A stretch of DNA of 64,000 nucleotides, taken from positions 56,828-120,827 of the forward strand of contig JANXYX010000052.1 in the NCBI GenBank assembly GCA_025408425.1. Reading direction: 5' to 3'. Position 1 is the first letter of the stretch, and each line of letters begins with the position of its first letter. A program made the position numbers and the translations under genes. This DNA comes from Granulicella sp. (GTDB taxonomy: Bacteria; Acidobacteriota; Terriglobia; Terriglobales; Acidobacteriaceae). The notes under the pieces were generated by a model. That model worked only from the letters and a program-made list of their open reading frames with translations. It made no database searches and was not told where the DNA came from. Of this stretch, positions 37,939 through 56,668 are shown piece after piece.

Positions 37939-38928
37939 TTATAGTCCGACTTTGCTGTGCCATGAACTGGCGGACTTGAGAGCTGTGTTGACGTTTTCGA
38001 TGTTCTCGACGCCGGTGGATTCAAGCCAGTCGCGGAAGGCCTGAGCGCCGTGCTTGGCGTAGATGGGAATGCCATCCTTCCAGGTGGCTCGGCCGCAGAG
38101 GACGCCGTTGTACTTGGTTCCGGATTCTCCGGCGAGCTCGAGAGTCTCGATGAAGACGGGGTTGGAGACACCAGCGGAGAGGTAGATGAAGGGCTTGTGG
38201 GTCATGGACTCGGCATCGCGGAAGTGCTGGAGAGCCTCTGCGCGAGAGTATGCCTTTTCGCCCTTGAATGCCTTGGTTCCTTCTACGAACTCCATGACGA
38301 TGGGGACTTCGACCTTGAGGACATCGACGTTATATCGATTTTTGCCGAACTCTGCCATGGCTCCTGAGACGATGGATGGCTTTTTGAGGGCGTAGGCGAG
38401 GGATTTCTCATCTCCGCCATCGGCGTCGTAGCCTACGAACTCAAGGAAGAAGGGGATGTCGTGGGCGAGGCACTCGTCGCCGATGCGCTCGATCCAAGCC
38501 TGCTTGAGATCGTTGATGTGGGACTTCTCGAAGGGGGTGTAGTAGAGGAGGATCTTGATGCAGTCTGCTCCTGCTTCCTTGAGACGGCGCACGGACCAGA
38601 CGTCGAGGAGGTCTGGGAGACGACCGGCGGTGGCGGAATCGTATCCGGTCTTCTCGTAAGCAAGGAGGAGACCAGCGTTGTGACGGAGCTTGGAGGCGGG
38701 CAGGCCGAACTCCGGGTCGAGGAGGATTGCTGACGCGTGCTGGGTGAGGACGTCGGTGACGAGCTCCTTGAAGACTTCGAGATCGTGGGCGTCAGCAGCA
38801 GCGCCGCGCTCCTTGGCGAGGGACTTCTGGAGCGAGCCGCGCTGGTCCATAGCTGCGGCGGCGATGACGCCGCGGTGATCGGATACGGCCTTGAGTCCGG
38901 CCAGCTTACCTGGGGTCAACTTCGACAT
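37939..38928 (-). CDS. lacD: Tagatose-1,6-bisphosphate aldolase family (LacD-like class I aldolase)
   Basis: MSKLTPGKLAGLKAVSDHRGVIAAAAMDQRGSLQ; ADCIKILLYY. Confidence 0.9.
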   Translation of the reverse strand: MSKLTPGKLAGLKAVSDHRGVIAAAAMDQRGSLQKSLAKERGAAADAHDLEVFKELVTDVLTQHASAILLDPEFGLPASKLRHNAGLLLAYEKTGYDSATAGRLPDLLDVWSVRRLKEAGADCIKILLYYTPFEKSHINDLKQAWIERIGDECLAHDIPFFLEFVGYDADGGDEKSLAYALKKPSIVSGAMAEFGKNRYNVDVLKVEVPIVMEFVEGTKAFKGEKAYSRAEALQHFRDAESMTHKPFIYLSAGVSNPVFIETLELAGESGTKYNGVLCGRATWKDGIPIYAKHGAQAFRDWLESTGVENIENVNTALKSASSWHSKVGL

Positions 38929-39126: not shown

Positions 39127-39591
39127 TTATCTGTTGTCCTCTTCTTCTTCGTCCTCATCTTCATCTTCATCGTCGTAGGGGGAGAGATCGAGCATGGTGC
39201 CCGGTTCGGCGAGGTCGAGACCGTCTGGGGTGGAGGCTATGGAGCGGATGATGTCTGGCGCGTAGGGCTTGAGGTGGAGGTTCGCGGCGTTCATGGAGGC
39301 GAGTTGGAGTCCGTAGAGGAGCGCGGTGGCACGCCTGGTGTCGAGCTGTCCGGTTGCGAGGGCGTTGATGACGACAGAGAGAGCGATCTGAACGGACTCG
39401 CGGTCTTCGAGGGCGGAGAGTTCGAGGTGTTGCCCCGGGATGAGGTAGCCGCGGGTGGTTTCGGTGTGACGGAAGGAGGTGTGGCGCTGGAGGAGGCGGT
39501 TATGGAAGTAGCAGTAGGGGCGCTGGTTGAGGGAGGGGGCCTGACACTGGAGGCCGTTGGTCTTGATGTGGCGGCAGATGGGAACTTGCAT
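39127..39591 (-). CDS. Hypothetical protein with N-terminal Cys/His cluster and poly-acidic C terminus
   Basis: MQVPICRHIKTNGLQCQAPSLNQRPYCYFH...; C-terminal DDEDEDEDEEEED. Confidence 0.75.
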   Translation of the reverse strand: MQVPICRHIKTNGLQCQAPSLNQRPYCYFHNRLLQRHTSFRHTETTRGYLIPGQHLELSALEDRESVQIALSVVINALATGQLDTRRATALLYGLQLASMNAANLHLKPYAPDIIRSIASTPDGLDLAEPGTMLDLSPYDDEDEDEDEEEEDNR

Positions 39592-39613
39592 GGTTTTATC
39601 CTTTTTGGGGTGG

Positions 39614-39764
39614 GGTACCCCCCTGGGGGGTAGGTGGTTAAAAGTCGAATGGATGCAACGAGTTAGCGAAATGTGTCTCGCTAACCTATTGCATCCAGAG
39701 GATTTACGGCTAAATATTAGATTCTAAACGAGTAAGCCCCGGCGGGTTGGCCGGGGCTCACTTG
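39614..39764. other. Structured intergenic element, copy A (C-tract palindrome, 46-nt double-stem hairpin, A/T box, GC hairpin)
   Basis: TACCCCCC-T-GGGGGGTA (39616-39632); GGATGCAA-cga-GTTAGCGA-8nt-TCGCTAAC-cta-TTGCATCC (39651-39696); box 39709-39736; AGCCCCGGC-gggttg-GCCGGGGCT. Confidence 0.65.
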
Positions 39765-39997
39765 TTACCTGATCTCTACTTCAATTGTAGCGGTTTGAGT
39801 GGAACTGCCAGACAGTATTTATTGCCTTTTGAATCAATGAGATAGGCTGTTTCTGGACTTGACAAGCGTTTTTGCTGGGAAAAAATGAAGGAAAAAAAGC
39901 GAGGCCGATTGATGACGTCGTTCTGGCCGTGTCTTCGCTGTGCTGTCAGGGTCTATTGAGGTGCATGTGATTTTGAAGCCATGGTGGAGATTGCGAC

Positions 39998-40744
39998 TTA
40001 AGAGGTGGCGTTGAGAGCGGCCTGCTGGATGGCGAGGAGTTGTTGGATGCCGGCTTCGGCGTAGTCGAGCATGTGGGTGAGCTGGGCTCGGGTGTAGGAG
40101 TCTTTTTCTGCGGTGGCCTGGGTTTCGACGAGGCCTCCTGAGGCGAGCATGACGACGTTCATGTCGACGGTGGCGCGGGAGTCTTCTTCGTAGCAGAGGT
40201 CGAGGAGGGTGTGTCCATCGACGATGCCGACCGAGGTGGCAGCGACCATCTGGCGCAGGGGCGAGGCTTTGAGGGTGCCTGCGGCGACGAGTTTGTTGAG
40301 GGCGATGGCGAGGGCGACGCAGGCTCCGGTTATGGCAGCAGTGCGGGTTCCTCCGTCGGCCTGGAGGACGTCGCAGTCGAGGATGATGGTTCTTTCTCCG
40401 AGTGCTTTCATGTCGACGACAGAGCGGAGGGAGCGGCCGATAAGGCGCTGGATTTCGTGGGTTCTTCCGCCGACCTTGCCGCGCTCGGACTCTCGGGGGG
40501 TGCGGGTGAGGGTTGCGCGGGGGAGCATGCCGTACTCTGCGGTGACCCAGCCGCGGCCGGAGTTGCGGAGCCATCCGGGGACGCCGGTCTCGATGGTGGC
40601 GTTGCAGAGGACGCGGGTGTTGCCTGATTCCATAAGGACAGAGCCTTCGGGGGTGACGACGTAGCCGGGAGTGATGCGGGTGGTGCGGAGGGTATCTGCG
40701 GAGCGGTTGTCCGGGCGGAAGAGGAGAGGTGCGGCTTCAGGCAT
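39998..40744 (-). CDS. rph: Ribonuclease PH
   Basis: [58 protein letters not shown]. Confidence 0.97.
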
Positions 40745-55454: not shown

Positions 55455-55578
55455 GGTACCCATCCCCCCTACCCGTCATAAAGTGCGCAAAATCTTCGAA
55501 TATAAGGACTTAGGTCTGGACTTCCTGCTTTAGCAGGTATGGAAAAGGCCCGACTTGGTAGTCGGGCCTTTCGTTTTG
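55455..55578 (+). other. Structured intergenic element, copy B: C-tract, A/T box, small hairpin, strong terminator (candidate sRNA)
   Basis: GGTACCCATCCCCCCTACCC; box GCAAAATCTTCGAATATAAGGACTTAGG 55487-55514; CCTGC-TTTA-GCAGG. Confidence 0.55.
55545..55578 (+). terminator. Strong intrinsic terminator between two minus-strand genes
   Basis: AAGGCCCGACT-tggt-AGTCGGGCCTT then TCGTTTTG. Confidence 0.85.
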
Positions 55579-55603
55579 TTCTGATTCAATTGTACTGTGG
55601 CTG

Positions 55604-56668
55604 TCAAGCACGGCCCATCGTTTGGAGGTGACGCAAGTGGGCGCCTACGGCTTTGCGAACGGTGGTGTGTTCGACGTAGGGGATGTTGCGTTCCTGACAG
55701 ATGCGCCGGACGATGCGGCTGATCTCCGGATAGTGCACATGTGCGACTTTTGGGAAGAGGTGGTGCTCGATCTGGAAGTTGAGGCCGCCTACGAGCCAGG
55801 TGACGATGCGGCTTTGGGTTGCGAAGTTGGCGGTGGTGGCGATCTGGTGGATGGCGAACTCGTCGGGGAGCTGGTTTTGGTCGGTATCGGGTAGCGGAAA
55901 GTCGGTGTGCTCGACGGTGTGGGCGAGTTGGAAGACGATCGTGAGGGCAATGCCTGCGGTGGCCATGGTGATGGCTAAGCCGATAAGCGCGTGCGCTGCG
56001 CCGATGCGAGAGATGGGAAGGACGAGGAAGAGGGTGGCGTTGACGAGTTTGCCGGTCCAGAATTTGAGGTGTTCGACGGGGCTCATCCTGGGCATGGGGA
56101 CGGGGCCGACTCTGCCGGTGAAGTAGCGCTGGTAGTCAACCTGAAAGACCCAGACGAAGTAGACCATCATGTAAAGGAACCAGCAGTAGAGATGCTGGAA
56201 GCGGTGCATCTTGAGTTTGCGCTGATGGGCGTTGACGCGCATGAGGTAGCCGATGTTGATGTCGTCGTCGACACCCTCGACGTTGGTGAAGGTGTGGTGG
56301 AGAATGCAGTGCTTGACCTTCCAGATGTAAGCGCTGCCGCCGAGGCACTCCAGGGTGGCGCCGGCGAGGGTGTTGATCCAGGTGCGGGTGCTGAAGCTTC
56401 CGTGGCTGCCGTCGTGCATGACGTTGAAGCCGGTGGCGGTGATGAAGAGGCCGAGGAAGACGCACTCCGGCAGGGCGAAGTACCAGGCTGGGGTGAAGAA
56501 GATGAGATGGACGTAGAGGGCGATCATGCCGGTGAGGATGATGATCGCTTTGGCGTAGAGCTGACCGTTCCCTCTGGACTTGAGTTCGCCCTGATCGAAG
56601 TATTGAGCGACGCTGGTTTTGAGTGCTGAATGTAGGGAGGGAGTCGTGACAGGGAACTTTGGAGTCAT
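55604..56668 (-). CDS. Fatty acid desaturase (acyl-CoA desaturase-like)
   Basis: Histidine boxes HDGSHG, HHTFTN, QIEHHLFP; TM helices. Confidence 0.94.
   Translation of the reverse strand: MTPKFPVTTPSLHSALKTSVAQYFDQGELKSRGNGQLYAKAIIILTGMIALYVHLIFFTPAWYFALPECVFLGLFITATGFNVMHDGSHGSFSTRTWINTLAGATLECLGGSAYIWKVKHCILHHTFTNVEGVDDDINIGYLMRVNAHQRKLKMHRFQHLYCWFLYMMVYFVWVFQVDYQRYFTGRVGPVPMPRMSPVEHLKFWTGKLVNATLFLVLPISRIGAAHALIGLAITMATAGIALTIVFQLAHTVEHTDFPLPDTDQNQLPDEFAIHQIATTANFATQSRIVTWLVGGLNFQIEHHLFPKVAHVHYPEISRIVRRICQERNIPYVEHTTVRKAVGAHLRHLQTMGRA

Follow-up and report, generated by a model that had tools for sequence, protein, structure and literature searches.

The locus and the extent of the module

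Between the gene for RNase PH and the start of an ORF of 154 amino acids, the window (the whole stretch of 64,000 nucleotides from Granulicella sp. that was analysed) contains a densely structured intergenic region (Table 1). The initial annotation had described a palindrome, a 46-nt hairpin, an A/T-rich box and a GC hairpin at this site, and all four are present as stated. The proposed extent of about 150 nt (39614-39764) did not stand, as homology between copies spans from a G-run at ~39607 to GG..CTTGACA at ~39864. The four features are thus enclosed in a larger unit, hereafter the module, with a length of ~260 bp in the aligned copies of the own genome. These copies have a common order of G/C palindrome, ~29-nt unit region, AT box and GC hairpin, followed on the plus strand by a T-rich run, CTCTA..ATTNTA, AACTAA..GCCA and the right end GGGGCTTGACA. 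Most copies carry the T-rich run after the GC hairpin in a terminator-like arrangement; the window copy has no clear T run. The two direct 29-nt units are contiguous, and the first one pairs with the inverted unit to form the arms of the 46-nt hairpin. Inside the AT box, TAAATATTAG shows almost no variation in the own-genome alignment. In three own-genome copies (L020, L023, L025) extra sequence is located ahead of the GC hairpin, which opens with an ATG and a frame of 8-9 codons.

Table 1. Position of the module, its parts and the neighbouring genes in the window
Feature	Position	Strand	Remarks
Tagatose-bisphosphate aldolase	37939-38928	-	
154-aa zinc-finger gene	39127..39591	-	downstream of module
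RBS and start codon of 154-aa gene	39589-39605		
Whole dispersed module	39607..39866	-	own-genome copy alignment; right limit also by ortholog comparison
Left-end G/C palindromic block	39607..39632	none	abuts gene; block in nearly every copy
Palindrome TACCCCCC-T-GGGGGGTA	39616-39632	none	
Inverted copy of 29-nt unit (left hairpin arm)	39643..39669	-	read directly
46-nt hairpin (dyad) GGATGCAA-cga-GTTAGCGA/TCGCTAAC-cta-TTGCATCC	39651..39696	none	
Direct 29-nt unit 1 (right hairpin arm), CGCTAACCTATTGCATCCAGAGGATTTAC	39679..39707	+	
Direct 29-nt unit 2 (AT box GGCTAAATATTAGATTCTAAACGAGTAAG)	39708..39736	+	AT box given as 39709-39736
GC hairpin	39735..39758	none	
Putative -10 hexamer TACAAT	39784..39789	-	family conservation and promoter scan
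Upstream box TGGC.. (on +: AACTAA..GCCA)	39804..39815	-	family conservation
Right end GG(G)CTTGACA	39854..39866	+	conserved among copies
RNase PH	39998-40744	-	named from its sequence
Second, short-type copy	55458..55610	-	upstream of VWA-domain-like gene; nhmmer E 8e-6

The zinc-finger gene beside the module

Numerous genomes of the genus encode a homologue of the 154-aa protein; one match that bears a name is Edaphobacter lichenicola M8UP30, after which we call the genus Edaphobacter. Seven residues (C6, R7, H8, G13, C16, C27 and H30) are invariant in 33 homologues, and the cysteines and histidines of the family follow the pattern C-x9-C-x10-C-x2-H, which it has in common with the Pfam families DUF5763, zf-primase and WRC. 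DUF5763 matches 17 of the 33 homologues, zf-primase 13 and WRC one, the last weakly. Even for DUF5763 these matches are weak (best E 2.1e-4), and the window protein itself gives no match at the gathering score; searched alone, it hits no family in Pfam (including DUF5763), NCBIfam or PHROGs. Comparison with the PDB, both by sequence and by the fold of a model, revealed no resemblance to the 154-aa protein, and its C-terminal helical domain had no match either.

The module is a regular companion of this gene family. An iterated profile detects it upstream of the zinc-finger gene in 62 of 66 distinct leaders, with no hit in reversed-sequence controls; this profile was partly trained on such leaders, and the independent figure, obtained with a profile from own-genome copies alone, is 51 of 66. 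Together with the conserved minus-strand -10 described below, this supports the suggestion of the initial annotation that the region could be a 5' leader read on the minus strand. The arrangement of the genes at the window locus is old, judging from sequence comparison, since the homologue in G020 likewise adjoins the aldolase gene and the one in the RYN_3 MAG lies near RNase PH.

Distribution and copy number

A covariance search had been proposed as a check of whether the element has homologues elsewhere, and these proved abundant. In the own genome, which comprises 4.23 Mb on 53 contigs, BLAST with the 201-nt region located the element in 21 places and the covariance model in 35. Across the genus, the model found 1,679 matches in 56 of 63 Edaphobacter genomes, with 71 being the scoring ceiling for a single genome. 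When 101 genomes were drawn evenly from the class, only eight of those outside the genus had matches, one to three weak ones each, and none had an E better than 2.5e-5. The option of a dispersed palindromic repeat is therefore supported by the many copies and their lineage-specific occurrence.

Among the 63 genomes, presence of the element is associated with presence of the zinc-finger gene (Fisher p 0.003) and genomes with more zinc-finger genes tend to have more copies (Spearman rho 0.61, p 1.5e-7), both values being uncorrected for relatedness and stemming, as regards the association, partly from the gene-linked copies themselves. Solo elements also occur in genomes in which no zinc-finger gene is detected at E 1e-10, for example G042 with 70 of them. 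In the own genome the solo copies adjoin unrelated genes, as named from their sequences. Across genomes, 40 copies lie on the start side and 41 on the stop side of the neighbouring gene, so that there is no preference in orientation. About half of the copies thus follow a stop codon, where a promoter would be antisense into the left gene, and at these copies the terminator-like hairpin may be more important.

The second copy in the window, located between the VWA-domain-like gene and a fatty-acid-desaturase-like gene, resembles the leaders of longer zinc-finger genes and is probably the copy B of the initial annotation. Several copies in G024 and G050 (L329, L332, L335) are accompanied by a different dispersed intergenic repeat, which contains TCCTGCCGGACGG.. 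and GTATACAAGTCACGAAGTGACC.

A conserved promoter-like site

The most constant part of the module is a short site beyond the GC hairpin. In 87 aligned copies, the sequence at positions 54-59 is A T/G T N T A, which gives TANA[A/C]T when the minus strand is read, and the first, second and last bases of the hexamer are present in 86, 87 and 86 copies, respectively. This motif has the pattern of a sigma-70 -10 hexamer and is oriented leftwards, so as to lead into the zinc-finger gene. For the window copy, the promoter scan returned CTGGCA-16-TACAAT. The conserved TGGC box of most relatives is ~21 nt away from the -10, and most copies lack a -35 at the normal spacing of 16-18 nt. By pattern only, we call this site a putative leftward promoter.

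Hairpin: RNA or DNA

The 46-nt hairpin of the window copy is unusually strong, with a folding energy of -15.9 kcal/mol compared to -5.25 +/- 2.01 for shuffled sequences (z -5.3). It is also strong in many zinc-finger-linked copies of relatives, and among 14 own-genome copies 67% of the pairs are formed. The two arms covary: in the own-genome copies 67.2% of the positions are paired versus 29.8-45% in slid alignments, a value reached by none of 500 shuffles, and 24 cells are altered on both sides versus 13.6 +/- 2.6 in shuffles. Gene-linked copies behave in the same way, as seen from GGATGCAA/TTGCATCC in the window and TGACTGCA/TGCAGTCA in L065. Compensatory changes, the absence of which together with a missing transcript would have spoken against the proposed structure, are found in the arms of the hairpin.

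Selection on an RNA strand predicts more G.U pairs than A.C mismatches. We applied a symmetric mismatch count of G.T versus A.C in the stem, which is based on small numbers, and obtained 15 versus 13 for isolated mismatches and 33 versus 22 overall. With such similar counts neither strand stands out as the RNA, and a DNA dyad, for instance one bound by a dimeric protein, explains the stem no worse than an RNA hairpin does. RNAalifold returned the GC hairpin as the only structure of the 14 copies, and Rfam contained no match at the gathering score, the best sub-threshold hits being a plant miRNA model (29.1 of 75 bits) and BSnc120 (19.8 of 114). In view of the missing Rfam match, the near-equal isolated mismatches and a hairpin that is weakly kept in solo copies, the structured ncRNA considered in the initial annotation finds no backing.

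Gain, loss and movement of copies

Comparison of upstream regions demonstrates that individual copies differ between species. The copy at fumA is missing from all 15 relatives and that at gdhA from all 12 relatives read, which means that these copies were gained or lost between species; in the own genome, native -10-like sites of fumA and gdhA are still recognisable next to the insert. Two species of ~90% identity have 36-37 of 41 copies in common, and between G045 and G046 every checked copy is in common. Movement is accordingly slow, as copies are largely common to close species.

A special situation was found in G073, in which the module lies inside units of 442-448 bp (the 445-bp element) that are bounded by terminal inverted repeats. 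The unit starts with CTAG-AG.GCCTGTTATGAACT and ends with AGTTCATTACAGCCTCTAG; the inverted repeat reads AGAG.CTGTTATGAACT with CTAG at both ends (L191-L210, L260-L267), and the right inverted repeat has 31 matches. This indicates, from the sequence of the units, that the module has been carried by transposition in this genome. No transposase gene with such ends was found in the loci read for G073. Copies in the own genome have no terminal inverted repeat at their ends, nor do G044, G055 and G062 have ends of this kind. A search for a clean empty site in G024 and G050 yielded none: one candidate turned out to be a partial loss in G050 with the GC hairpin remaining, and two other candidates for insertion sites were not clean.

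Conservation and the break at the right end

In 36 orthologous pairs between G024 and G050 the element is ~80-92% identical, close to the value of the coding flank (~91-96%). Homology is unbroken from the left gene over the element to TTGACA and stops within ~30 nt of this motif in ~17 of the 36 pairs; breaks on the left side are rare (~3). Ectopic recombination between copies was ruled out as the cause of the break, because the right half of the element is 87% identical in broken pairs and only 60% identical between paralogues. The break may reflect either that the element is under selection and the adjoining DNA is unconstrained, or that this end is a favoured site of joining. In any case, the sharp loss of homology past the right end raises a directly testable question on gene gain or rearrangement in Acidobacteriota. 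As a separate observation, a STAS-domain-like gene is located just to the right of one element in G024 and is absent in G050 (L326 versus L312), so that gene content differs at the right end in this case.

Interpretation

In the best-supported reading, which we consider somewhat more likely than not, this genus-wide, high-copy intergenic element acts at the DNA level, bears a promoter and has its home location in front of the zinc-finger gene, as the control region of that gene. Direct support is provided by the family, its distribution and position, the conserved -10, the covarying dyad, the lineage-specific copies and one transposon-borne form. At the home locus the module would function as promoter and 5' leader of the zinc-finger gene, as suggested by position and conservation. 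We infer that the zinc-finger protein controls its own gene by binding to the 29-nt units, and that the solo copies put other genes under the same promoter or supply a terminator. As to the route of spread, in at least one lineage the copies have spread inside an inverted-repeat mobile unit, as the ends and the uniform length of this unit show.

Lineage-specific copies, the 445-bp form of G073 with its terminal inverted repeats and CTAG flanks, and neighbouring genes without orientation preference would also be expected from a purely selfish, MITE-like repeat, in which promoter and hairpins would simply be carried along and the zinc-finger gene would be no more than a frequent neighbour. We regard this explanation as rather unlikely, since neither terminal inverted repeats nor target duplications were seen outside G073, the two species of ~90% identity have most copies in common with their sequence kept, and nearly all zinc-finger genes carry the module at the same position. 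It is more doubtful still that the module is a structured cis-regulatory RNA on the minus strand, that is, a riboswitch-like or protein-binding leader: its location ahead of the start codon and the compensatory changes of the arms would agree with such a function, yet neither strand appears RNA-like from the mismatch counts, Rfam gives no threshold match, and the hairpin is weak or absent in many copies and substituted in others.

A plus-strand terminator or 3'-end element of the left gene, with an incidental -10 site, would explain the GC hairpin with its T-rich run in most copies as well as a left end at most ~15 nt from the stop codon in several genomes. This is the least probable of the explanations, because the -10 pattern, as the most constant feature, is located past the terminator and the left gene runs in the opposite direction, both in the window and at the leaders of the zinc-finger genes. 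Only slightly less improbable is a two-part self-propagating system of element and zinc-finger gene, in which the protein would bind the 29-nt units and aid spread or maintenance, and the GGGGCTTGACA end would be a site at which new DNA joins. If true, it would stand for propagation without a known transposase or HUH enzyme.

Comparison with known systems

None of the open-access papers searched described the element, which we take to be a new, probably regulatory repeat specific to the genus and not an isolated RNA. As a promoter-bearing element at home in a gene's control region, it would provide the genus with tens of ready-made promoters in each genome, linked to zinc-finger proteins of an uncharacterised family. 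It would also be a natural system in which to study how the regulatory region of a gene gives rise to dispersed control elements.

REP sequences are associated with a Y1 HUH enzyme. They are palindromes of 20-40 bp (PMC3733652). With REP/REPIN and RAYT systems the module has in common that it is palindromic, dispersed, kept over species and linked to one gene family. In contrast, its conserved unit comprises ~260 bp, and the protein linked to it contains a zinc finger but lacks an HUH domain. The own genome contains seven Y1_Tnp (RAYT-like) matches, including G000:C12:137796 and those on C39, C21 and C10. In loci of 3.2-3.3 kb around four of these genes, none (0/4) adjoined a copy of the module, and a link to RAYT was rejected on this basis.

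The module also resembles MITEs, being non-coding and dispersed and having in G073 a form with terminal inverted repeats, CTAG flanks and uniform length; unlike a MITE, it is free of terminal inverted repeats in the own genome and in all other genomes examined except G073.

Another point of comparison are the Correia repeat enclosed elements of Neisseria, which are short, high-copy, intergenic and genus-specific; they have promoters directed outwards and affect the genes next to them. They measure ~100-155 bp and have terminal inverted repeats and TA target duplications. The dispersed, putatively promoter-bearing and genus-specific nature of the module is Correia-like, whereas the module is ~260 bp long, mostly without terminal inverted repeats, and tied to a family of zinc-finger genes.
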